Below the pieces are notes generated by a model. It was not told the DNA's origin and did not search any database. It saw only the letters and a program-made list of their open reading frames with translations. From a virus, in IMG/VR virus record IMGVR_UViG_3300013004_000031, positions 1 through 64,000 of that record: 64,000 bases of DNA, one strand, 5' to 3'. Positions 2,466-37,314 of the stretch are shown in pieces (positions within the stretch are counted from its first letter, which is position 1; each line of letters opens with the position of its first letter). A program made the translations under genes and the position numbers.

Positions 2466-2648
2466 TTATTTTTCAGATTTATAGTGTGCGTATAACCCAA
2501 CCACACCCAAGAGTATCCATGTAAATGGAAGATAATCAAGATTTTTTATGTTAATGAGAAGCAATAGCGGGGTAGTTATCACACCCATCACACACCCAAA
2601 CATGAGTTGATTCCAAAGTTGTTTGTTCATTTCTTTATTACGTGCCAC
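2466..2648 (-). CDS. Small two-helix membrane protein
   Basis: 60 residues beginning with a GTG codon (MARNKEMNKQLW). An in-frame ATG seven codons in is an alternative start. Two hydrophobic helices (QLMFGCVMGVITTPLLLLI and YLPFTWILLGVVGLYAHY) are separated by a short polar loop, giving a hairpin in the inner membrane. Function unknown. Confidence 0.55.
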   Translation of the reverse strand: MARNKEMNKQLWNQLMFGCVMGVITTPLLLLINIKNLDYLPFTWILLGVVGLYAHYKSEK

Positions 2649-2682
2649 TTTTATGTTGGATTTCGTATTTCATATTTCATAA

Positions 2683-2865
2683 TCAATTAAAATTATCTTT
2701 ATCTCTGAAAATATTGTCAATTTCCCTCAAACAATTCTCCACACCTTCACTTGATAGTGAAATATTTCGAGCAATATAGAGCCTATTGCAGATATCCTGC
2801 AATTCCCCAGCTTGATCAATAAAATCCATTACCACGTCCAAATCAATTGTATTCTCGTCTTCCAT
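2683..2865 (-). CDS. Hypothetical protein, 60 aa
   Basis: A small acidic helical protein. It is supported by the promoter-like element at 2873-2891 (TACAAT box 7 nt before its ATG), one of four copies of a motif shared with the genes starting at 3537, 7480 and 9216. No Shine-Dalgarno sequence is visible. No family recognised. Confidence 0.6.
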   Translation of the reverse strand: MEDENTIDLDVVMDFIDQAGELQDICNRLYIARNISLSSEGVENCLREIDNIFRDKDNFN

Positions 2866-2872
2866 GCTTAGG

Positions 2873-2891
2873 ATTGTAGTCTAGTTTTTAA
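2873..2891 (-). promoter_or_regulatory. Promoter of the ACTAGA class for the gene at 2865
   Basis: On the minus strand it reads TTAAAAACTAGACTACAAT. The TACAAT -10 box ends 7 nt before the ATG at 2865. The upstream half overlaps the stop codon of the preceding gene. Confidence 0.55.
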
Positions 2892-3238
2892 TGTCCAATT
2901 GTGAATTTCTCAAGCGTTTTATCCCCGTTCTGCATGAGATACATAATAATCTTCTCCAGATTTCCCTTGAGTTTGATAAGTTCCCCGTTTTTCTGAAATT
3001 CCTCCATTTTCAGGAGATTTTCCAGATTTCGGGACGCTGCAAACGCATTATCCACGATATTTGCCATTTGTTGGGGTAATTCCCCAAATTCAAACGGTAG
3101 AGTGTGGGGAGCCTTGGCTTCTTTCTCATCCGTCTTGTATTTTCGCATCTGTTCCGAAGGATTCAGCGAACTTTCAAAGTCGAAATCGATGGCACCGGAC
3201 GCGATTGCAGTGGAATAGGGAGAATTTGAGGCAGACAT
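2888..3238 (-). CDS. Late-expressed hypothetical protein, 116 aa
   Basis: The protein has a disordered Ser/Ala-rich N-terminus (MSASNSPYSTAIASGAIDF) and a helical C-terminal half with a run of Leu/Lys (about 75-110). A late -10 box (TTAAATA) lies exactly 5 nt before its ATG, so it is probably a virion or head-assembly component. No family recognised. Confidence 0.6.
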   Translation of the reverse strand: MSASNSPYSTAIASGAIDFDFESSLNPSEQMRKYKTDEKEAKAPHTLPFEFGELPQQMANIVDNAFAASRNLENLLKMEEFQKNGELIKLKGNLEKIIMYLMQNGDKTLEKFTIGH

Positions 3239-3243
3239 ATTAG

Positions 3244-3250
3244 TATTTAA
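3244..3250 (-). promoter_or_regulatory. Late promoter -10 box (TTAAATA) for the gene at 3238
   Basis: The minus strand reads TTAAATA-CTAAT-ATG, with a 5 nt spacer to the start codon as in the other late genes of the window. Confidence 0.65.
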
Positions 3251-3537
3251 TCACTTTTTCCATAAAGCCTGATAATTCTATAAATATCAGATGCTTCACC
3301 CACCTTTTCAACACCTTGGCAATATGAATCGTTATTACCAGCTTCTTCCTCAACCTCTGTTGCCGTCAGTGTATTACCAATTCCCATTCCAAAATCAATT
3401 CCACCCCCAATATATACTATTTTATTTTCATTATGATAGATTCCTGTAAATATCCAAGTCTTCCCTTCTTCCCAATCATCACAATGCCACCGAATAACAT
3501 CACCACATTTCACCGTTTCCCCGTTTTTGTATGTCAT
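3247..3537 (-). CDS. Hypothetical protein, 96 aa, beta-rich
   Basis: Begins MTYKNGETVKCGDVIRWHCDDWEEGKTWIFTGIY, which suggests a small SH3-like or ASCH-like beta barrel; this is inference only. The gene is preceded by a TATAAT box 6 nt before the ATG and has no Shine-Dalgarno sequence. The upstream 48 nt are shared with the divergent gene at 3586. Confidence 0.6.
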   Translation of the reverse strand: MTYKNGETVKCGDVIRWHCDDWEEGKTWIFTGIYHNENKIVYIGGGIDFGMGIGNTLTATEVEEEAGNNDSYCQGVEKVGEASDIYRIIRLYGKSD

Positions 3538-3543
3538 ATTTTC

Positions 3544-3562
3544 ATTATATTCTAGTTTTTAA
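3544..3562 (-). promoter_or_regulatory. Promoter of the ACTAGA class for the gene at 3537
   Basis: The minus strand reads TTAAAAACTAGAATATAAT followed by GAAAAT and the ATG at 3537. The TATAAT box at 3544-3549 is 6 nt from the start codon. Confidence 0.65.
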
Positions 3563-3573
3563 CGCTATTTCCA

Positions 3574-3580
3574 CTAAATA
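3574..3580 (+). promoter_or_regulatory. Late promoter -10 box (CTAAATA) for the gene at 3586
   Basis: CTAAATA-CTATC-ATG: the box ends 5 nt before the start codon. It lies divergently next to the promoter for the gene at 3537. Confidence 0.7.
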
Positions 3581-3585
3581 CTATC

Positions 3586-4002
3586 ATGGCTAATAAATTC
3601 CACGCTAAATTCCTCAAAATTCTCCAAGAAGCTCCCCAACTTGACATTGATCCTGATTTGGAGAGAGGTGCTGCTGAGATGTCCCTAGACGATGATGTTG
3701 CCATGGATGATTATGATGTGGACATGGAAGTTGATCCATCCGCTGTGGATGAGATTGGGGATGCCATGGCTCGCCAGAATGAGCAAATGGTTGGTGTTGT
3801 TGATAAATGGAATTCAAATATTGATAAGTTCCTTGGTTATCTCAATGGTGATCAGCCAAACAGTATTCAGAGTGTTCTGGCTACCGCCAATCCTGAGTCG
3901 ATGTTGGGTAATTTGAAGAACCAACAAGTGAAAATTGGTCGCATTGCTTCCGATCTTGCTGCCCTTCAACAGTCGTTTATGACTGCGAAGAAGTCTCAGT
4001 GA
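3586..4002 (+). CDS. Putative internal head protein with capsid-targeting-like leader
   Basis: 138 residues. The N-terminal amphipathic segment MANKFHAKFLKILQEAPQ contains LQE, a match to the (L/I)xE cleavage consensus of T4-type prohead proteases. It is followed by a very acidic stretch (about 33-60) and a helical C-terminus. It is expressed from a late promoter. The leader resembles those of the late genes at 36.3-41 kb, so I infer that it is packaged in the prohead. No enzymatic domain recognised. Confidence 0.55.
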   Translation: MANKFHAKFLKILQEAPQLDIDPDLERGAAEMSLDDDVAMDDYDVDMEVDPSAVDEIGDAMARQNEQMVGVVDKWNSNIDKFLGYLNGDQPNSIQSVLATANPESMLGNLKNQQVKIGRIASDLAALQQSFMTAKKSQ

Positions 4003-5965: not shown

Positions 5966-6370
5966 TCAAGCAAGATATTCTTTCATAATGTCACGAATAA
6001 TCCGTCTTCCTTCCTCATTTGCAGAGTGAACATAGACCTTGATGTTATCATTTGGAGACAATTTATCCTTCAGATACTTGGCACAGTGAATACCAGACTT
6101 TGTTTGGAAATTCTCCCATTCATAATAACCGGGATTCTTGAGAAAATTGATATAATATTTCATGTGTTCCAAGCACAAATCATTGTCAAATGAACAAATG
6201 GATGGAAACCCTCGTTCCTCAATAATCTTCACGAAATCGTTATAATTTCTAACAATTTCCCAATTTCCATTGGATGTTTTGGTCTTATCCAACAGCATCA
6301 CACCCCCGTCATTATATAGAAATGCATCTTTGGGTTGGCGCACATCATCAAGAAATAATAAATAAGACAT
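5966..6370 (-). CDS. Cyclic-phosphate-processing receiver-like domain protein
   Basis: 134 residues. LLFLDDVRQPKD at the N-terminus, ICSFDNDLCLEH near residue 60, SGIHCAKYLKD, and YVHSANEEGRR near residue 115 match the pattern LDDxRxP / SFDxDL / tGxxxAkxl / vHSxNxxG of the single-domain receiver-like family linked to cyclic-phosphate processing. The start codon overlaps the upstream stop (TAATG). Catalytic role inferred from the pattern only. Confidence 0.65.
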   Translation of the reverse strand: MSYLLFLDDVRQPKDAFLYNDGGVMLLDKTKTSNGNWEIVRNYNDFVKIIEERGFPSICSFDNDLCLEHMKYYINFLKNPGYYEWENFQTKSGIHCAKYLKDKLSPNDNIKVYVHSANEEGRRIIRDIMKEYLA

Positions 6371-7185
6371 TATTCAACACCCTCACTAAATTTTTGTTTA
6401 TCTCTAAATTCAGCCACCGATGGGTATCCACCATCAATAACTTTCAATTCCTCTGGATTAATTCCTCGAAATTCCCATACTACCTTCTTTTCAAAGGGGG
6501 ATATTTTGAAATTGGAATGCGCCCTCATCAGAATATCAACGATATCTTCATGTGATAATTCGGGATATATTTTGCTTTTTAATTCTTTGATCTCCCCCGA
6601 TGGCGTGTCCCTAAAAGTATCACCGTAATGAGAAAATTGTTTGGAATCTATGGCAACCCAAAAAATATCATCACCCGCAAAACAATTCTTAATACTTTTC
6701 AATATATTATTATCAATATTTTTAGTATCACACCAAAAAGCAATCAGAGAGACATTCTTACCAGCAGATTTGGATTTAATATTTTTCCAGATTCTTCCAG
6801 AAAATGTGTTGCGTCGAGTATTGCCCATGATCTGATCCTTTTGATTATCATAATAATAGTCAAGATCATCAGAAGTCGCTTCACCACAAACCTTAACAGA
6901 GTAATCTTTTAAAATACTCTTAAATTGTTTAGGGTCTGCTTTGACTTTAGCTAAAGCATTGAAAATAGATGGGTGTGTATTGGAAGTATGAAAGAGTGTC
7001 TTTCCTATGAAAGAAAAAGCTTCTCCCGATTCATATGAATAGGAGTCCCCATCAAAATTAATCTGATCAGGACTAGAATTTTTGGAAGGAATCTTAACGT
7101 TTTCCATTAAAATTACACCTCTTGCTGTAGCTCGCTCCTCAATTATCTTTTGGTAAAGCTCTCGTATGTTCAAATCATCCTTCAT
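6370..7185 (-). CDS. Hypothetical protein, 271 aa
   Basis: Start set at ATG 7185 (MKDDLNIRELYQKIIEER), preceded by GGGAGG; a TTG at 7221 would extend it into the upstream gene. The N-terminal helix ends in IIE/ER, resembling the leader of the late gene at 20897 (LYEEILEE), so it could also carry a capsid-targeting sequence, though no late promoter precedes it. The rest is mixed alpha/beta with FWCDTKNIDN and IFWVAIDSKQ strands. No family recognised. Confidence 0.55.
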   Translation of the reverse strand: MKDDLNIRELYQKIIEERATARGVILMENVKIPSKNSSPDQINFDGDSYSYESGEAFSFIGKTLFHTSNTHPSIFNALAKVKADPKQFKSILKDYSVKVCGEATSDDLDYYYDNQKDQIMGNTRRNTFSGRIWKNIKSKSAGKNVSLIAFWCDTKNIDNNILKSIKNCFAGDDIFWVAIDSKQFSHYGDTFRDTPSGEIKELKSKIYPELSHEDIVDILMRAHSNFKISPFEKKVVWEFRGINPEELKVIDGGYPSVAEFRDKQKFSEGVE

Positions 7186-7480
7186 TGTTCCAAATTTCCT
7201 CCCATTTTTTAAATTTTTCAATCAATATATCCAAATTTTTAGATTCATACCTACAATCAACTGAAGTTGTATAGTAATGAATGTTCCTATTCAATTCCTT
7301 ATAACCACCATAATTCAACACATCTTCCCCGTCAGAATGCTCAACTTTTAACACGAATGTATCATACATCCCATTGTCATCAACGTCAATAGACATGAAT
7401 TTGTCTTTTATTGGATAAAAACGAACATTCTCGTATTTGGAAGCATTTTCTTTGTATTCTTCTGGATAAAATATAATCAT
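7175..7480 (-). CDS. Hypothetical protein, 101 aa
   Basis: A small beta-rich protein (MIIFYPEEYKENASKY). Supported by an ACTAGA-class promoter with TATAAT 6 nt before its ATG. It overlaps the next gene by 11 nt. No family recognised. Confidence 0.6.
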   Translation of the reverse strand: MIIFYPEEYKENASKYENVRFYPIKDKFMSIDVDDNGMYDTFVLKVEHSDGEDVLNYGGYKELNRNIHYYTTSVDCRYESKNLDILIEKFKKWEEIWNNEG

Positions 7481-7486
7481 GATAGC

Positions 7487-7505
7487 ATTATACTCTAGTT
7501 TTTAA
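7487..7505 (-). promoter_or_regulatory. Promoter of the ACTAGA class for the gene at 7480
   Basis: The minus strand reads TTAAAAACTAGAGTATAAT, then GCTATC and ATG. The AAAAACTAG part also encodes the last codons (K-N-stop) of the upstream gene. Confidence 0.65.
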
Positions 7506-8094
7506 CCATAAAAATCACCACCGTAGGATTTGTGGGATCAACGTTTCCGTTATCATCCACAAAATATGAAATACCGTTTTTCACCGGATATTCTCCCTCC
7601 ATATTCAGCGTTCGATCAATCACGAAACCATTTCTACTGTAAAGCCTGAACAAACCTTCATCCTTGATGTTGCCTTTATCGTCTTGGGTTGCAAAACAGT
7701 CCAATCTTGTGGCTCCCTGTTTGATAGCCTCCTGCACCAGAGCATTACCCGAAGATTCCTGCGAGGAGAACACCGAAACCAATTCATCTTCATCCTTGAT
7801 ACAAAATCCACTGGAATTGTTCTTACCCAAGAAACACTTCATGCGCTGGTAATCTTGAACGGGATAAACACTGAGATTATTCTTGATGTTCTTAAAAAAT
7901 TTGGGATTTACCGTTTTGCGAAATTCATCATTCTTCGTGATATTTGTCAGGGCTTGGAAAAATACCCTACCGCTCACCTGTTGAAAATTATCAGGATTGT
8001 TTGGATCAAGTCTTTGACCCTTTCTTAATTGTTCGGGAGATAATTTGCCAATATCGGTGAATTTTTCCCAAAAAAATTGATAAAACGATTTCAT
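7495..8094 (-). CDS. Putative packaged GNAT-like acetyltransferase
   Basis: 199 residues from a late promoter. The first ten residues, MKSFYQFFWE, align position for position with the T4 internal-protein leader MKTYQEFIAE. The C-terminal half has LVQEAIKQGATRLDCFA, then GLFRLYSRNGFVIDRTLN (the 'LY.r.GF' hallmark of GNAT folds), and ends in a strand VVIFMVKN. I infer an acetyltransferase-like protein packaged in the head and injected, by analogy with T4 Alt. The acetyl-CoA loop (Q/RxxGxG/A) is not obvious, so activity is uncertain. Confidence 0.5.
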   Translation of the reverse strand: MKSFYQFFWEKFTDIGKLSPEQLRKGQRLDPNNPDNFQQVSGRVFFQALTNITKNDEFRKTVNPKFFKNIKNNLSVYPVQDYQRMKCFLGKNNSSGFCIKDEDELVSVFSSQESSGNALVQEAIKQGATRLDCFATQDDKGNIKDEGLFRLYSRNGFVIDRTLNMEGEYPVKNGISYFVDDNGNVDPTNPTVVIFMVKN

Positions 8095-25978: not shown

Positions 25979-28486
25979 TTATTCTCCAAACAAGTCATCC
26001 AATTCTACGGTTAAGTTTTCGCTGGGTTTTCTCAATTTCCAACCCACTGCCCTATAAAATCTCTCAATCGCTGCATAAAACACTTTACTAAACATCTTTT
26101 CAAAGTCAACTGTGAAGATGTTATCAAATTCTTCTGGCCAGTCCCCCTTGAATCCGATCATATCCAGATTGTATTTGTTGGGTTTCTTAACATATACCAT
26201 GCGAACCTTGTCTCCCGACTTGAATTTCTCATATTTGGAACCCCATCCGTTCTGTTCCATGATCATGTCGTGAAAATAAGCGGCTTTCAGATGGGATGGC
26301 ATACCTTTCACAGTGTTCATACCATTACACCTTGAGGAATATTCTGCAAAATTGTTCATACTGGAAATCTTGGAAATCTCCGCAATGGATAGATTCTTGA
26401 ATTCCTCATAAGCCTCGTTGAACATATCATTGGTTTCCTTCAAAGATTGAGACGTTATCATATGTTCAATAACTTTCTTAACATAAGGCTTAACCTTCTT
26501 GGGCATCGTTGTTTTCACAACATCAACTCCCCGATACTTGAACTTGTCCACCTTGGTTCCCTCATCATCCAAAACATGAAGGACATAATATTTCTTACCG
26601 ATGAAGATTCCGCTATCACAAATGGTTTCCCGCTTGAACACAAAACGTGGATCAGTGCTTCTCAGGGCTTTTCTTGCCCATTCTGTTATATTTATATTAA
26701 TATAATCCTCAATATCATCACACAGCTTATAAAATTCATCGGATGCGGTTTCTAGCCCAAATTGTTTTAAAGATAAAAATATACTGTCCGTATCACCGTA
26801 AACACAACTTTGTTGTAATAAGGATTCTGACAAATCCGGTAGATTTTCTCTTACATAATCCTGAAACAGATCATTGCTCTTCTTGATTACCGCTTGTCCA
26901 GTCAATGTAACCGATGTTCCAATATCCTCATCTCCAAGGGGAGCATATTTGTTGAGCATATAACCATACAGGGAATTGAGATGGATTTTGTAAGCGTATT
27001 GGATGCTATCGAATTTCTGCTCCCCTTCTTTATCCCCGTTCTTACGGCATTCCATCATCTTGTTTTTCATCTCTTTACGTTTAGTGTAAAGATTATCTAA
27101 GAATTCAGGAACCAGTCCGCGTTTCTTTTGGGAAAATAGAAATCCAGCCTTGGTTAAAGCCGCTTGTTCCTCATCAATGAATTTCTTGAAGTTCTCAGGT
27201 GTCATCTCAAATAACCTACCAGAAACATGATGGATTTTTACCTTATCCCCATCCTTCTCCACCCTCCCAATCTTCGTTTCAGGAGAGAGATTCAAGGAAA
27301 TCATCACCGATGGATACAGGGAATTGGCATCAAAGGATACGATGTTCTCCGCAAACCCAATTTTTGGTTCTGCCACATAGCCACCGGGAGCGCGGAAATC
27401 CGTCACGGGACGAATGAACGTGGGAATGTATTCCCCCCGCATACGGGCGCGTATGGCAATTGCTCCGTTCATTGCTGGAAGTGTTCTGATTGCGCTTTCC
27501 AGATCACATAATCCGGTGTATGCAAGGAATCGGATGAGATTGATATATCCCTTTTTTTGATCTAACCCCACAACGATTTCCACATCGCGTATATTGTAAT
27601 CAGTGTAGGTATTCCAATCATTCTTTGCGAGTTCCCAGAGATTGCCTTCGTGAGCTACCTTATTAATCCCCAATTCAACTTCCCCGATGTTATCCAGCTT
27701 ATACGATTCCTGTTTCTCCAGATTGAACTTCTGATAAATCACATAATAATCAAGGATTGACAATCCTTCGACCACATATTCCTTGGATGGCATTCCAAAT
27801 TTACCGTTTGGATTGGTCTTTTCATAAATTCTACCTGTTGGGGACAGCTTATCAGCCCATTCCTTCCCCAATTGAAAGGTGATTCGATTTACAAGATATG
27901 GAACGTCGAATGCTGCTATGTTCCAACCACTTAAAACATCGAAACCTTCCTTTTGAAATAATTTGATGAATGATTTAAGCAACTCCTCTTCGGATTTGCA
28001 CCAATAATATTTCACATCATCTCTCGTGGTGTGAAAATTCTTCAATCCAAATACATGATACATCTTGGATTCAGAATTATAGATCGTGATCAGATTGATT
28101 ATCGATTCAGCTAATTCCGGTTCGGGAAAATGTGAGGAATTCGGGCATTCCAAATCAAAATAAGCCACCTTCAAAGGATGTTGGGAGAAATTATCATCCT
28201 CACAAACAGACCAATAATTATCAATCAGGAATTGCTGATATGGTGGCAAATTCTCATAAATCCGCTTAATATTACTATCTTTTACGAAATTATTCCTGTC
28301 GTATCCACTGGCAAATTCGCGTTTCGTGAGAGATGTCCCATATATGGACTTCTCCGTTCCCTTCTTGTCTTCCAAAAGGATGTAGGGCTTGAAATCATGT
28401 TCTTCGCGGATGCGCTCCCCATTCTCATTCCATGAAAAAAGTGTGATCTTTCTTTCCCGATTGTTGTAAACACAGTTCCTATACAC
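25979..28486 (-). CDS. 43: DNA polymerase, family B, T4 gp43-like
   Basis: 835 residues (T4 gp43 has 898). Exonuclease motifs: VAYFDLECPN, GWNIAAFDVPYL and YNIRDVEIV. Polymerase motifs: A SFDANSLYPSVM, B LNSLYGYM and C VYGDTDSIF. The C-terminal VELDDLFGE resembles the clamp-binding tail LDFLFG of gp43. The start is a GTG (MYRNCVYNN); an ATG two bases upstream is out of frame. It is the replicative polymerase and proofreader. Confidence 0.96.
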   Translation of the reverse strand: MYRNCVYNNRERKITLFSWNENGERIREEHDFKPYILLEDKKGTEKSIYGTSLTKREFASGYDRNNFVKDSNIKRIYENLPPYQQFLIDNYWSVCEDDNFSQHPLKVAYFDLECPNSSHFPEPELAESIINLITIYNSESKMYHVFGLKNFHTTRDDVKYYWCKSEEELLKSFIKLFQKEGFDVLSGWNIAAFDVPYLVNRITFQLGKEWADKLSPTGRIYEKTNPNGKFGMPSKEYVVEGLSILDYYVIYQKFNLEKQESYKLDNIGEVELGINKVAHEGNLWELAKNDWNTYTDYNIRDVEIVVGLDQKKGYINLIRFLAYTGLCDLESAIRTLPAMNGAIAIRARMRGEYIPTFIRPVTDFRAPGGYVAEPKIGFAENIVSFDANSLYPSVMISLNLSPETKIGRVEKDGDKVKIHHVSGRLFEMTPENFKKFIDEEQAALTKAGFLFSQKKRGLVPEFLDNLYTKRKEMKNKMMECRKNGDKEGEQKFDSIQYAYKIHLNSLYGYMLNKYAPLGDEDIGTSVTLTGQAVIKKSNDLFQDYVRENLPDLSESLLQQSCVYGDTDSIFLSLKQFGLETASDEFYKLCDDIEDYININITEWARKALRSTDPRFVFKRETICDSGIFIGKKYYVLHVLDDEGTKVDKFKYRGVDVVKTTMPKKVKPYVKKVIEHMITSQSLKETNDMFNEAYEEFKNLSIAEISKISSMNNFAEYSSRCNGMNTVKGMPSHLKAAYFHDMIMEQNGWGSKYEKFKSGDKVRMVYVKKPNKYNLDMIGFKGDWPEEFDNIFTVDFEKMFSKVFYAAIERFYRAVGWKLRKPSENLTVELDDLFGE

Positions 28487-30402: not shown

Positions 30403-31275
30403 TCAATTGTTTATTCTTCTAGTAATCCCACCTTCTTTTTCAAGTTCAATAATTGATCCCGTGACTTGTTTCAATATTTCCTTTCTATGGGAAATTGCAT
30501 AAACAGCCAAATCGTTCTTTTCAATTCTTTTTTTGACGAGTTCTACCAATAAATCAAACCCCCTCTCATCAAACGCCGCGTCAAAAACCTCATCTATCCA
30601 TTCCACGTTAGATGACACTCCTGAAATCTTCCTTTTCAAATCCTTGAATGCCCATGCACACGCGAGATCGACAGTTCTGCGTTCTCCACCGCTCAGATTC
30701 CAGTAAGAAATTTCCTTGCCCTTGTCATTGGAAAGCTGTTCATCAAAGTATTCATCGAATTTACAACGAATGGACATACCAAGATCATTAATATATTGCT
30801 GGATACTTGCGTTCATCATGGAAAGGAGTCTCTTCACCACAAAGCTACGGACACCTTCTTCTCCCAGAACGAATTTACACACCTCATAATCTTCCGATTT
30901 CTGCTTGAGCAATAGGAAATTATCACGTTCCGTGTCATATCTCTCCTGCGTCTTGATGATATTCTCCTCAAAAGCTGGTTTGGGTAATTCATCCAACTTC
31001 AAATTATCCAGAGATTCCTTGTATTGTTTGAGACTAATTTCCAGACCTTCCAATTTCTGCTTGGTGACTTTAGCTTCGTTGATTTGGTCTTGAAATTCAG
31101 CTACCTTTTGTTGAACCTTTTCTTTTTTGGAATGAAATTGGGATTTATCTTCCTTCAATTTATCAATTTCCTCAACAATATTATCCAATTCGGATTGATA
31201 TTGCTCCTTCATTTTCTCCAGATGTTCCACATGTGTATGGGGAATTTCTTGAAGGCACTTGTCACATTTAATCAT
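30403..31275 (-). CDS. 46: gp46 C-terminal half (Rad50/SbcC-like), starting at the zinc hook
   Basis: 290 residues. It begins MIKCDKCLQEIPHTH: CDKC is the Rad50-type zinc hook. A returning coiled coil follows (15-120), then the signature motif WNLSGGERRTVDLACAW, Walker B WIDEVFDAAFDE and the His switch AISHRKE. The Walker A half is a separate gene (31573-32490), so the ATPase must assemble from two chains. Together they total 595 residues (T4 gp46 has 560). Works with gp47 in DNA end processing. Confidence 0.88.
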   Translation of the reverse strand: MIKCDKCLQEIPHTHVEHLEKMKEQYQSELDNIVEEIDKLKEDKSQFHSKKEKVQQKVAEFQDQINEAKVTKQKLEGLEISLKQYKESLDNLKLDELPKPAFEENIIKTQERYDTERDNFLLLKQKSEDYEVCKFVLGEEGVRSFVVKRLLSMMNASIQQYINDLGMSIRCKFDEYFDEQLSNDKGKEISYWNLSGGERRTVDLACAWAFKDLKRKISGVSSNVEWIDEVFDAAFDERGFDLLVELVKKRIEKNDLAVYAISHRKEILKQVTGSIIELEKEGGITRRINN

Positions 31276-31576
31276 TTTTCAAAATTTCGTTTAAATCTTT
31301 TCTCTCCGTTTTGCATATAGCAAAAACACGATCAATCATTCTATTAGCGTTAGGTAACAATTTATAGGTTTTAAATTTATTCAACAAATCATATAATTTA
31401 GACATTCTAATATAATCACCATCAGATTTTTCATTATCTAAAACATTTAGAAAATCTTCAATAGATGTCAACTTACCCCAATCCAATGAATAAGGAATTT
31501 GTGTAAAATGAGATTGATGGTTTATCCAGTGTTCAACCCTACTTTTTTCAATAACGAATATTGGTTGTTTTTTCAT
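31268..31576 (-). CDS. Hypothetical protein inserted between the gp46 halves, 102 aa
   Basis: MKKQPIFVIEKSRVEHWINHQ and a helical remainder. It overlaps the N-terminal half by 4 nt (ATGA) and the C-terminal half by 8 nt, so the three are translated as a coupled set. It has no homing-endonuclease or intein motif that I can see. It sits exactly where the coiled coil would turn at the zinc hook. Function unknown. Confidence 0.6.
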   Translation of the reverse strand: MKKQPIFVIEKSRVEHWINHQSHFTQIPYSLDWGKLTSIEDFLNVLDNEKSDGDYIRMSKLYDLLNKFKTYKLLPNANRMIDRVFAICKTERKDLNEILKND

Positions 31577-32490
31577 ATCACTTTCTCAATTTGTTCAATT
31601 TCTTTCACCTTCAGCTTCCTCAAAGTCTCCTTGGAAGAGATTTCGTTATTCACATGACCGATCTTTCCATCCAGCTTTCTCCAAGCATCATCCCACTTCT
31701 CTTTCTCCGTTTGGATGGTAGAAATATCCATAATAGATGTTTTAGCAATCTTTTCAGATGTTTCATCAATCTTTTCCTGAATTTCTTTGCGCTTTTGATC
31801 AAGAATCGCTTCCCGCTCTTGGACTTTCTTCAAATAATCTTCTTGCTGCTTGTTTAGGGTTTCCAATGTGTTATTGATTTCTTCCAACTTGGCAGAAGAA
31901 ATGTTCATCTCCCCTTTATTATCACGAATCAAAGTCTTCAATTCGTTGCTCATCTTACCAAAGACTTCCAGAGAGAAAATGTCATTGATGAACTTGCGCT
32001 TCTCTTCAGGTTTCTTTGCCATGAATGGGATGTTATCCGAAAGAGATAAAATATCACAACTACGACAAATCACAGGATTGGAACCGATCAAATCACAGAT
32101 GAATTTGTCGGTGTTGGCAATGGAATCCTTGGTGATGTCTTCCTCGCATCTCAGAAGCGTCACAGTGCTTGGTTTGACTTGCCGCTTTATCGTGTATGTC
32201 TGAACGTCTTGCTCCGTCTCTACGTCGAACGTAAGCTCAATGGCACCCTTTCCTTTGGTGATGTTGTTGATGATGAAATCCTTTTTAATTTCACGGATGG
32301 TTTTACCGAATAATGCGAAATAGAAAAGTTCGGCCATAACTGATTTTCCAATACCGTTCACACGATCTGGATTATCAATATTCCTACCAGTGATCAGATT
32401 AAATCCTGATTGGAAGTCAACCGATATTTGGTCATTTCCCACACTGAGGAAATTTTGACCTTTTAAATTTTTATAAATTATTCGTCTCAT
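31573..32490 (-). CDS. 46: gp46 N-terminal half (Rad50/SbcC-like)
   Basis: 305 residues. FNLITGRNIDNPDRVNGIGKS is a P-loop with a 6-7 residue insertion before NGIGKS, followed by a Q-loop region and SDNIPFMAKKPEEKRKFIND as in SbcC-type ATPases. From about 190 to the end it is an ascending coiled coil, which stops before any hook. The rest of the protein is the gene at 30403-31275. Confidence 0.88.
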   Translation of the reverse strand: MRRIIYKNLKGQNFLSVGNDQISVDFQSGFNLITGRNIDNPDRVNGIGKSVMAELFYFALFGKTIREIKKDFIINNITKGKGAIELTFDVETEQDVQTYTIKRQVKPSTVTLLRCEEDITKDSIANTDKFICDLIGSNPVICRSCDILSLSDNIPFMAKKPEEKRKFINDIFSLEVFGKMSNELKTLIRDNKGEMNISSAKLEEINNTLETLNKQQEDYLKKVQEREAILDQKRKEIQEKIDETSEKIAKTSIMDISTIQTEKEKWDDAWRKLDGKIGHVNNEISSKETLRKLKVKEIEQIEKVI

Positions 32491-32499
32491 ATTATTTTA

Positions 32500-32700
32500 T
32501 CATCCGCATTGTTTCATTTTTTGGATAACTTCTTTATCAATCTCTTCTTGAATAATATCACGAAATATTTGCATTTCAATTGAATTGAACGCTTCATCAT
32601 ATTCTTCCTGTGTGTAATCCTTATACCACCTACCAGTGTGGTCTTCATACACCCGAATATAACCATCCTTTACGGGAAATTCCTCATCTACACTTTTCAT
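32500..32700 (-). CDS. Hypothetical protein, 66 aa
   Basis: Acidic: EEFPVKDGYIRVYEDHTGRWYKDYTQEEYDEAF, then a helix. It overlaps the end of gp47 by 17 nt and precedes gp46, so it belongs to the 47-46 transcript. No family recognised. Confidence 0.55.
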   Translation of the reverse strand: MKSVDEEFPVKDGYIRVYEDHTGRWYKDYTQEEYDEAFNSIEMQIFRDIIQEEIDKEVIQKMKQCG

Positions 32701-33703
32701 ACAATTCGTCGTTGATTTTTTTAACTCTTACCAATTTATCTGGTTCTAAATTCAATTGTTCATAGAACTCGTCAAACATTCCCACAATATCAATGGAATC
32801 CACCTGTTCAACATCCCCGATTGTCTTGGTTGCCACGTTGTATTCCGTTGTGAGGCGGAATGGAGCAAAGTTGGACAGGTAAATCTTTAACTTCTCCACC
32901 TTATCATCATCCATCTCCTTGTCAATGATCAGCTTTACGATGTTTCCTTCCACATCCTCCGCTTTGTAGTCCTTAATCTTGGACAGGGGAATTTTGATAA
33001 ATTCTGGAGACACCGTATTCTTCACGAATTCCACCGAATCATCTTCCAGATTCAGAATGTGATAGCCCTTATCATCTCCGCAATCGTTGAAATCGTGGGG
33101 AAAGGTATTGCCAATATAGCGGATTGTTCCCTCATTGTATTTCTTGATACTCTTAGTATGGAAATGACCAGACCAAACGTTGGTTGTTCGGGATGCTAGG
33201 AAATCCATAACTTGGAATCCATGATCACAAACCTTGTAATTGTTCATCTGAAATGATTGAATTTCAAAGTGTCCAAAGATGTGATCAAATTTACCTTCCG
33301 GCAATTCATGGTTCCATGGAACGAATAGCAATTTCTTACCAAACGCATCAAATTCCAAATTCTGGTCAATGATGGTGATGTTATCATGACCCTTGAGGAA
33401 TCCCAAGCTATGGACATCGGAACGGTTCTTGTAGAACGCATCGTGGTTGCCAATCACCATAAAGAGGTTGAAATTCTTGAATTTGGCGATCAATTCGGAT
33501 GCAACGTGAATTGTCTGAACGGAAATCTCCGAACGGTTGTGGAAGAAATCACCAAGGAAAAAGATGTCTGAAATCTTCTTTTTCTTTAAATCAGCGACGA
33601 TCCAATCAGCCCATTTTAAGGCTATCTCATGCCACTCCGTCGAATTTCCATATAGACCCAAATGAAGGTCTGAAAATAATGCTACTTTATTTTTCTTTAT
33701 CAT
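32684..33703 (-). CDS. 47: Recombination endonuclease subunit, T4 gp47 / Mre11-like
   Basis: 339 residues from ATG 33703, the same length as T4 gp47; longer in-frame starts overlap the upstream gene more. Calcineurin-type metallophosphoesterase motifs are in order: FSDLHLGL, LGDFFHNR, VIGNHD, and VWSGHFHTKS. It forms the nuclease with gp46, resects DNA ends and feeds UvsX-dependent replication. Confidence 0.93.
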   Translation of the reverse strand: MIKKNKVALFSDLHLGLYGNSTEWHEIALKWADWIVADLKKKKISDIFFLGDFFHNRSEISVQTIHVASELIAKFKNFNLFMVIGNHDAFYKNRSDVHSLGFLKGHDNITIIDQNLEFDAFGKKLLFVPWNHELPEGKFDHIFGHFEIQSFQMNNYKVCDHGFQVMDFLASRTTNVWSGHFHTKSIKKYNEGTIRYIGNTFPHDFNDCGDDKGYHILNLEDDSVEFVKNTVSPEFIKIPLSKIKDYKAEDVEGNIVKLIIDKEMDDDKVEKLKIYLSNFAPFRLTTEYNVATKTIGDVEQVDSIDIVGMFDEFYEQLNLEPDKLVRVKKINDELYEKCR

Positions 33704-33995
33704 ATTCTTTTGCTGTTTCATTAAGCACATCTCCAATATTTCGGAAAAAACTTTCAATGTGGTAGTTATCTCTCCACATCATATCTCGTCCAAAAGACGG
33801 TGTATATTGATCAATAATTTTAGCAGATTTCTGCTGAACCCTGTCGAGATAATCCTTTCTCACTTCGTTCAATAATTCATCCTTGTCGTATTCTGATCGA
33901 ATCAATCCTTCCACTTTTTCAATCAACAATCTCTGATCAAGAGATGCTTGCGATTTAATTTGTTGTAAGTTCATGCTATTCGTCATCATACTCAT
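33687..33995 (-). CDS. Hypothetical protein, 102 aa
   Basis: All-helical, with several Met near the N-terminus (MSMMTNSMNLQQ), so the exact start is unsure. It lies between gp55 and gp47, overlapping both by about 17-20 nt. No family recognised. Confidence 0.55.
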   Translation of the reverse strand: MSMMTNSMNLQQIKSQASLDQRLLIEKVEGLIRSEYDKDELLNEVRKDYLDRVQQKSAKIIDQYTPSFGRDMMWRDNYHIESFFRNIGDVLNETAKEYDKEK

Positions 33996-34425
33996 CTCCC
34001 TCCAAATTCGGTTTCACATATACATGTCCCATGGAATCCGGCCCACTCATGCTTTCCATATACACCATCTCCTTGTAATCCTCCAGACCCTTGTGTTGAC
34101 CGTTTTCCTTCTTGATGCGGTTACAGAAAGCGTTCCAAGCAATGCGGTTGAAATAGGAAAATGGGTTGTATTCCGATTCGATGTTATAGAGCTTCTTTTC
34201 CAAAGCTGCATACATTTTCAACACCGCATCCCCGACCATTTCCTGTTTCCAAGACTTGGAATAACGGATGAAATTGATCTTGTATGACAATCCCTCCGCA
34301 ATATTCATCAAATGGACACCCAATTCATCCAAATTCTCCCCCGTTTCATAATACTCAACCAATTGCTGTTTGAAGAGCTTGGAATTGACATAATGGGGTT
34401 TCTTAGCGTTTTTGTTTTCCGTCAT
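33976..34425 (-). CDS. 55: Late-transcription sigma factor, T4 gp55-like
   Basis: 149 residues (T4 gp55 has 185). YVNSKLFKQQLVEYYETGENLD, then LMNIAEGLSYKINFIRYSKSWKQEMVGDAVLKMY matches the gp55 core (IAEGLSKRFNF...SWKQEM). YNPFSYFNRIAWNAFCNRIKKE continues it. It directs host RNA polymerase to late promoters of TATAAATA type, matching the boxes found here. The acidic C-terminus (GDEYDDE) lacks the SLDFL-type clamp-binding tail of T4. Confidence 0.9.
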   Translation of the reverse strand: MTENKNAKKPHYVNSKLFKQQLVEYYETGENLDELGVHLMNIAEGLSYKINFIRYSKSWKQEMVGDAVLKMYAALEKKLYNIESEYNPFSYFNRIAWNAFCNRIKKENGQHKGLEDYKEMVYMESMSGPDSMGHVYVKPNLEGDEYDDE

Positions 34426-35840
34426 ATATTAATAGCAATTTCTTTAGATCGCCACACGATCTGTTCCTTATCATAAATCTCCTGCCTATGTAACGCATGG
34501 GAATAAGAATACTTTAAATTATCTGATACATCAATGATGCGGAGCTTGGATTTGTTATCATGCAACCGGAGTCCCCGACCAATGGATTGCACGACCCGAA
34601 TGAATGATTTACCAAGTCCCGCAAATATGATATTTGGGAGATTCTTGATATTAATACCAGTTGAAAAAATGGATGCCATTGCAATACAAATGATATTATC
34701 ATTCTTTTCCATCATGTCAATTATTTTCTTTCTTTCTTCGACTTCCATTTCCCCCTTAACAAAGAACACTCTCTTATCAGATCGGGAACGCACAATATGT
34801 AATAACTGATCCCCATGATCAAGGTGATTAACCATGATAAGGGTATTACCAATAAGTGCATCAGATAATTTAGCGATGATTTGATTTCTTTTTTCGTGTT
34901 TGTATAGATATTCCAGTTCATCTTTATATTTAAATTTTTTGGTTTTTGGGTGATTGAGTTGTAGAGACGTAATTTCCACATCAGAAATATATCCCTCATC
35001 CCTAAGTTCTTTGGATTTCTTCTCATATATCACGGAGCCAAATGTTCCAATTGTCTTCCATTGATCAATGGGCTTATCAGAAAGGGTTCCCGTGAAACCG
35101 AATTTATTGGGAGTGTGGATTTTGTTTATGATTTTGGAAATCTGATTATCGGCTGAAATTTTATGACATTCATCGGTTATGAGCAGATTTACGCTCAAAA
35201 TCCATGGATTGTCGGTAAATTGAGAAAGAAGGTTCTCAGAATTGCATATCACAACTTGGGTATCCTGCGGTTCCGTCCCTCCTGTCCATCCTGAATACGT
35301 GAATGTCACGCCATAATCTTCAAAATCACCCTGTAATTGGTTCACAAGAGATAGACCGGGGACTACTATGAGACATTTGAATGTATCATTTGATACGTTT
35401 CTCGTATAATTTTCTATGAGAAGTGCCTGTGCCAGAGATTTTCCGGCAGATGTCGCAAGTAGAAACGTCCCAAATCCTTTTTTCAGACCAGCAATCACTG
35501 AATCCTTCTGATAATATCGGGCATCGTATTTCAAATCATCCCAAAATTCCTCAATCACCACCCCGCACTTCAATCTCTTCTTGAAATCATCAGTTAGGGA
35601 TATATCGGTGATCTGGTTATCCCTGAGATATTTCAGAATCTCCCCATGGAATCCAAAATCAAACAAACCAGATGGTGTGATGGCATACTTGCGATCCTTG
35701 ACGAACCGATGTCCTTTCTTCTTGGCGAAGAATGCCCCATCATTCTTGGCGGAAAAATGATTACGAATCATCCCAAGGGTGTCAGAATCGGTGATGATCT
35801 GCCCCTGCCTTTTGGATGGTTTGTAGTCAAGGGTTATCAT
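34422..35840 (-). CDS. uvsW: UvsW helicase
   Basis: 472 residues, SF2. ATSAGKSLAQA (Walker A), LLITDECHKIS (DECH), FGFTGTLSD (motif III), and VVQSIGRGLRLHD (motif VI). The N-terminal region before the ATPase core is about 110 residues. It unwinds R-loops and branched DNA and helps the shift from origin- to recombination-driven replication. Next to uvsY as in T4. Confidence 0.92.
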   Translation of the reverse strand: MITLDYKPSKRQGQIITDSDTLGMIRNHFSAKNDGAFFAKKKGHRFVKDRKYAITPSGLFDFGFHGEILKYLRDNQITDISLTDDFKKRLKCGVVIEEFWDDLKYDARYYQKDSVIAGLKKGFGTFLLATSAGKSLAQALLIENYTRNVSNDTFKCLIVVPGLSLVNQLQGDFEDYGVTFTYSGWTGGTEPQDTQVVICNSENLLSQFTDNPWILSVNLLITDECHKISADNQISKIINKIHTPNKFGFTGTLSDKPIDQWKTIGTFGSVIYEKKSKELRDEGYISDVEITSLQLNHPKTKKFKYKDELEYLYKHEKRNQIIAKLSDALIGNTLIMVNHLDHGDQLLHIVRSRSDKRVFFVKGEMEVEERKKIIDMMEKNDNIICIAMASIFSTGINIKNLPNIIFAGLGKSFIRVVQSIGRGLRLHDNKSKLRIIDVSDNLKYSYSHALHRQEIYDKEQIVWRSKEIAINI

Positions 35841-36843: not shown

Positions 36844-37314
36844 ATGGAAAAAATTTTGGAAACCGCCCCACAAATCACCACTTGGAAGAATTTCCCAACC
36901 GATACGGAAGGTGTTGTGGGATTTGTTTACCTCATCCGCAACAATCATCCAGAATCTACACGCAAATATTACATCGGTAAGAAACAGCTTCTCAAGCGTG
37001 TGAAGCGCAAACCATTGAAAGGTAAGACACGCAATCGCATTTCATTTGTGGACAATGATGTGGAGAAGTATTGGGGATCGTCCAAAGAACTCCTGAATGA
37101 TATTGAGAAATATGGGATTGAGCATTTTTCAAGGGAAGTGATAGAGGTGTGTTACTCAAAATTCCATATGACGTATTCGGAACTACTGTGGCAGATCAAA
37201 ACCAATTCATTAATGGATCAAAGATTCTACAATGGCATTCTAAATGTTAGGATTTCGAAGATACCCAAAGGATTTGTTGACATTGAACGTGATCCTGCTA
37301 TTTTGAAGCTGTGA
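36844..37314 (+). CDS. GIY-YIG-type endonuclease
   Basis: 156 residues. GFVYLIRNNHPESTRKYYIGKK carries the GIY-YIG core (VYLI ... YYIGKK), followed by KRVKRKPLKGKTRNR, KYWGSSKELLNDIEKYG and FSREVIEVCYSK, with acidic Glu in EVIEV. A TTAAATA box lies only 3 nt before the ATG. It may be a free-standing homing or repair nuclease; similar proteins occur in other large phages. Confidence 0.75.
   Translation: MEKILETAPQITTWKNFPTDTEGVVGFVYLIRNNHPESTRKYYIGKKQLLKRVKRKPLKGKTRNRISFVDNDVEKYWGSSKELLNDIEKYGIEHFSREVIEVCYSKFHMTYSELLWQIKTNSLMDQRFYNGILNVRISKIPKGFVDIERDPAILKL

Follow-up and report, generated by a model that had tools for sequence, protein, structure and literature searches.

A phage gp46 gene in two pieces at the zinc hook, and a probable site of cargo exchange between the pieces

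In the window, that is, the whole 64,000-nucleotide stretch of viral DNA analyzed here, the essential DNA-repair gene gp46 (Rad50-like) is found as two genes that part at the zinc hook, with a third, small gene between them. We consider it highly probable that this is a derived gene in pieces, and that the break at the hook is now a swappable cargo site inside the core replication operon. Judged by its sequence, the phage is a distant T4-like virus; among the matches listed, its gp43 and those of the nearest cultured phages share about 30% identity. Related loci are given below by L numbers, and the features of the window on which the argument turns are as follows.

34422-35840, minus strand: uvsW-like helicase, named from a reading of the sequence and a gene order as in cyanophage P-RSM1
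33976-34425, minus strand: gp55-like sigma factor (PHROG 234)
32684-33757, minus strand: gp47 (Mre11/SbcD-like), partner gene of gp46 (PHROG 100, E 9e-68)
31573-32490, minus strand: gp46 N-chain, 305 aa (PHROG 77, SbcC-like, E 4e-41; Pfam AAA_23, 7e-13)
31268-31576, minus strand: inserted 102-aa ORF (P0002), the putative cargo, AT-rich (26% GC), predicted to form a helical bundle
30403-31275, minus strand: gp46 C-chain, 290 aa (PHROG 77, E 7e-41)
25979-28486, minus strand: gp43-like DNA polymerase

The two gp46 chains and their setting

Along the minus strand, the operon runs from the uvsW-like gene through the gp55-like gene, a 102-aa ORF, gp47, a 66-aa ORF, the N-chain, the inserted 102-aa ORF, the C-chain, a glycosyltransferase-like gene, and a 219-aa ORF to the gp43-like gene. 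The coordinates of the three ORFs at the break, and their overlaps of 4 and 8 nt, are exactly those given by the first-pass annotation. A search of the whole record (121.8 kb, linear, and possibly incomplete) with the N-half found one gp46 copy. Beside the replication operon, on the plus strand at 36844-37314, the window codes for a SegE-type GIY-YIG endonuclease (Pfam PF19835, 9e-21), and the whole record holds a second GIY-YIG match outside the window, at 73221-73448.

The two chains match successive parts of one PHROG 77 profile, with the C-chain covering the later part. The N-chain carries the Walker A P-loop of the N-terminal lobe with a clade-specific insertion (GRNIDNPDRVNGIGKS), followed by the ascending coiled coil, and its C-terminal end reads EIEQIEKVI before the stop codon. 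The C-chain starts with the zinc hook, MIKCDKC, whose CxxC motif is CDKC at residues 4-7 (both cysteines are invariant in 27 relatives), and continues with the descending coiled coil, the signature LSGGERRT, and the Walker B motif WIDEVFD. The first-pass annotation had described both chains in similar terms and placed the split at the apex of the coiled coil, and this description holds well, as the break lies at the hook tip and both halves keep the conserved head motifs. It had also pointed to an unusual insertion in the P-loop, which is real (32340-32400) but conserved across the clade, down to about 37% identity and equally in fused relatives, so that we rejected it as a part of the split. 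Among known structures searched by sequence, the N-chain gives weak Rad50 matches only, while the match obtained for the C-chain was discarded as chance coiled-coil similarity.

Purifying selection acts strongly on both gp46 halves. In pairwise comparisons of the N- and C-halves, dN/dS is mostly 0.05-0.15 (with dS mostly 0.3-2), and pairs among split genes, among fused genes, and between the two are alike; the outlier is the N-half of the close pair L006-L007, with 0.25 at a dS of 0.095. A decaying pseudogene, with another enzyme doing the work, has as its sole point that the gene is broken. It is very unlikely, and we give it hardly any weight, because dN/dS is low in both halves, at dS values up to about 2, and the hook cysteines are invariant; the motifs are all intact as well, and the start and stop of each piece are kept across the split lineages.

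Since both halves keep their head motifs and selection maintains both, a two-chain Rad50 head is likely, its assembly being suggested by this selection and by split enzymes that are known to work (PMC2988022). The N-chain, with Walker A, and the C-chain, with the signature and Walker B, would be held together non-covalently by their antiparallel coiled coils and, with gp47, make up the ATPase head, while the CxxC hook, which the split has left at the very start of the C-chain, would join two C-chains through zinc. A chain end tolerated at the hook is consistent with the finding that the Rad50 hook of fission yeast tolerates replacement by an SMC hinge (PMC6969161).

Origin and spread of the split

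Exact matches to the split-type start, MIKCDKC, occur in 16 IMG/VR contigs, all of them split at that codon. A sequencing error, which the first-pass annotation had named among the things that would overturn its claim, can thus be dismissed, as the contigs share the same break while holding different inserts. The chances of an assembly error, an intron, or an intein are just as negligible: no Rfam match was found at E <= 0.5 and the ORF fills the whole interval, with no room for an intron core, and the chain ends show no extra sequence compared with fused relatives, the N-chain ending in coiled coil and the C-chain opening at the hook.

The comparison of fused and split relatives that the annotation had proposed gave 11 distinct split C-halves against about 54 fused ones across all fetched loci. 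Near relatives have a fused gp46, both at 81-92% identity (for example L009, L013-L016, L035, and L041) and at 70-74% (L051), as does every more distant relative found, from which it follows that the fused gene is ancestral and the split derived. Fused genes have the tip KEIDKFSSVEDGIQCDKC, where split genes have KEIEQIEKVI and a stop (with small variants) and then MIKCDKC. Seven distinct lineages have a common break and the same kind of remodelled tip, in which EIEQIEKVI with its stop and MIKCDKC replace FSSVEDGIQCDKC. The remodelling is confined to the turn that leads into the CxxC; the two arms of the coiled coil are intact, and the chains sum to 305 + 290 aa, compared with 596 aa in the fused gene. 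There was probably one ancestral break, in which gp46 would have been cut at the turn of the zinc hook.

A single clade of split genes is rejected on either half-tree (AU p 7e-4 and 1e-4), trees in which the inner branches are poorly supported and which recombination inside the halves confounds; the junction is nevertheless shared. As the split genes are non-monophyletic and yet have this junction in common, the remodelled junction has probably moved between gp46 backgrounds.

A homing endonuclease could have interrupted gp46 at the hook and later been replaced by other genes, with co-conversion spreading the break, and we regard this as a serious possibility that stands somewhat below even. 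It has precedents in Aeh1 nrdA and T4 39/60 (PMC2988022), it would suit a non-monophyletic split state with a shared junction, and endonuclease-like genes do occur near gp46, namely, an HTH/DUF7487 gene with a copied gp46 tail in L010 and a GIY-YIG gene in L105. However, no split lineage has an endonuclease at the hook site, and searches of Pfam, PHROGs, and NCBIfam matched none of the inserts to a nuclease family. Such an origin is compatible with a cargo site, for which it would be the source of the break.

The L010 arrangement (5991-7529) looks like a homing-type insertion: the gp46 3' end is replaced by a new tail, followed by a gene for a 337-aa HTH/DUF7487 endonuclease-like protein, in which the gp46 tail is copied at the C terminus; after this gene come a 124-aa ORF and, at 7413-7529, the original gp46 tail in its displaced position. 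The L105 gene, a GIY-YIG/NUMOD3 homing endonuclease at 1449-2186, lies between the uvsW-like and gp55-like genes, and L055 has a shorter related ORF in the same place.

Two further candidates for a split gene were rejected. L204, flagged as split by a script, has a fused gp46 with an in-frame stop in the N-half (a sequencing error or a real nonsense codon), and the gp46 of P-RSM1, which shows two features under the match, is intact. No split gp46 was noticed among the about 100 matches listed from cultured phages, no gp46 C-half was found in bacterial genomes, and no description of a split gp46, Rad50, or SbcC was found in the open-access literature, which is weak evidence.

Contents and borders of the break

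The break is occupied differently among the split lineages.

Window, L006, and L007: the 102-aa gene
L012: a 108-aa gene, unrelated to the 102-aa family
L042: a GNAT acetyltransferase gene (Pfam, 6e-9)
L010: an open stretch of 70 codons that runs on in frame into the C-chain
L045: no gene, with a 45-nt spacer

The inserts have 26-33% GC, compared with 38-42% for core genes. L010 and L012 are nearly identical on both sides of the break (117/120 nt before the insert and 591/600 nt after it), while their inserts are no more similar than shuffled sequence. In the first 660 nt of gp46, L006 and L007 do not differ; thereafter L006 is window-like, its insert being 98.3% identical to that of the window and its N-half about 86% (Fisher p 5e-11); L006 would thus be a recombinant across the insert, although a metagenome contig such as this one could be an assembly chimera. 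A homologue of the 102-aa protein with 80% identity directly precedes the unsplit gp46 of L105, which is itself only 53% identical, and the 108-aa insert of L012 has a paralogue (65%) beside gp43 in the same phage. Whether the 102-aa protein and the 70 codons inserted in L010 are homologous was also considered, and hhalign gave no support (probability 0.4%). In a model of the L010 chain, the putative 70-codon extension has a pLDDT of mostly 35-58.

The insert sits between two short borders.

31573-31576, minus strand: left border, ATGA, a 4-nt overlap of the N-chain stop and the insert start
31265-31275, minus strand: right border, ATGATTAAATG, the start codon of the C-chain, where the two remaining frames read TGA and TAA

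The ATGA arrangement is the same in L006, L007, L010, L012, L042, and L045. The right border, within which the 102-aa ORF and the C-chain overlap by 8 nt (ATGATTAA), is identical in six of the seven split lineages, and L045 has ATGATCAAATG. Because this border holds both a TGA and a TAA, an incoming ORF in either of the other frames terminates where the C-chain starts, and an ORF that arrives in frame 0 is fused to the C-chain; the three outcomes are all observed, in L042, the window, and L010.

The first-pass annotation had offered a possible role for the inserted protein as a cap or bridge of the hook. As a dedicated third subunit of the broken hook, the 102-aa protein would explain why its gene stands exactly at the hook in the window, why the L105 homologue also adjoins gp46, and why the ORF overlaps translationally on both sides; the different insert of L010, in frame with the hook, would fit as well. 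We find this role unsupported and unlikely, though, as the same break holds unrelated inserts (the 108-aa gene and the GNAT gene) or none (L045), the homologue in L105 goes with an unbroken gp46, and the inserts are exchanged between nearly identical flanks. In the cargo site that we favor, the break would be a new gene boundary at which small AT-rich accessory genes settle, usually in translational overlap, and the short interval would be swapped repeatedly among phages as the conserved gp46 halves that flank it undergo homologous recombination. One such cargo would be the 102-aa protein.

This protein has no match in Pfam (above threshold), PHROGs, NCBIfam, or PADLOC, and no homologues were found in cultured phages, in bacterial genomes, or elsewhere in its own record. 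The family is known from four distinct sequences, which come only from split relatives and from the position before the unsplit gp46 in L105. Its dN/dS is 0.08-0.33, weakly measured with so few sequences, and the value of 0.08 that the window copy gives with its farthest homologue indicates that the ORF codes for a real protein. The AlphaFold2 model is a helical bundle of fair confidence (pLDDT 82), for which Foldseek against the PDB and viral models returned no E below 0.1; the bromodomain-like helical arrangements returned by VIA-align, with Z of about 6, are below the level at which that tool is informative for helical bundles. An accessory role in host takeover or counter-defence is plausible.

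Other junctions of the replication operon likewise hold variable genes. Between the gp55-like gene and gp47, L016 has a homologue of the CBASS inhibitor Acb3 (2273-2983; Pfam PF25187, 6e-36), and by clustering the same gene cluster is found in the same place in L037 and in L042 (from 694). Between gp47 and gp46, on the opposite strand, L013 has an anti-restriction-like gene at 2622-3974 (minus strand), coding for a 450-aa protein with an ArdC N-terminal domain (ArdcN, 4e-5) and a weak Peptidase_M78 match. As neighboring junctions in relatives carry Acb3 and ArdC-type genes, a counter-defence role of the hook-site cargo is plausible.

Comparison with known systems

The split genes known from T4-like phages are mainly attributed to interruption by homing endonucleases. 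A break that persists while its cargo changes, none of it with a nuclease match, suggests that breaks in genes can turn into stable sites at which accessory genes are exchanged. More generally, a core gene split at a structurally tolerant hinge may become a long-lived dock for exchangeable accessory genes, perhaps for counter-defence, which spreads by recombination in the halves with no endonuclease at the site, and the insert of L010 may even be fused to the hook; for this wider proposal the case is close to evenly balanced, leaning slightly against. No description of a cargo-exchange variant of genes in pieces was found in the open-access literature. A Rad50 that is naturally in two chains, with its break at the hook, would let the need for the hook and for a continuous coiled coil be tested, and the uncharacterized hook-site inserts are candidate genes for host takeover or counter-defence.

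The window shares with T4 gp46, SbcC, and Rad50 the Walker A motif, the coiled coil, the CxxC hook, the signature, Walker B, the adjoining gp47, and the PHROG 77 match. It differs from them in having two chains, a break immediately before the hook, and one putative cargo gene in between, as well as an extended P-loop that is common to its fused relatives.

In T4-like phages, genes in pieces include Aeh1 nrdA with mobE, the T4 topoisomerase with mobA, and 43A/43B in phages 25 and 44RR, and the split Aeh1 NrdA and phage 25 gp43A/B are working enzymes (PMC2988022). The window is like them in that a replication gene of the T4 core is in two pieces that are both kept, and, as in a gene split by a homing endonuclease, it is contiguous in relatives and its two coding pieces are complementary. 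Those genes are interrupted by a homing endonuclease or by a spacer that is not translated (PMC2988022), whereas the gp46 inserts are small genes, have no nuclease match, and vary among phages at a single site; the split gene here is also another one, gp46, and it is broken at the zinc hook. As in the HEG islands (PMC10448857), segments of the core replication region appear to be exchanged between phages, with boundaries at particular sites, but the putative exchange site in gp46 is internal to a core gene, and no endonuclease has been found at it.
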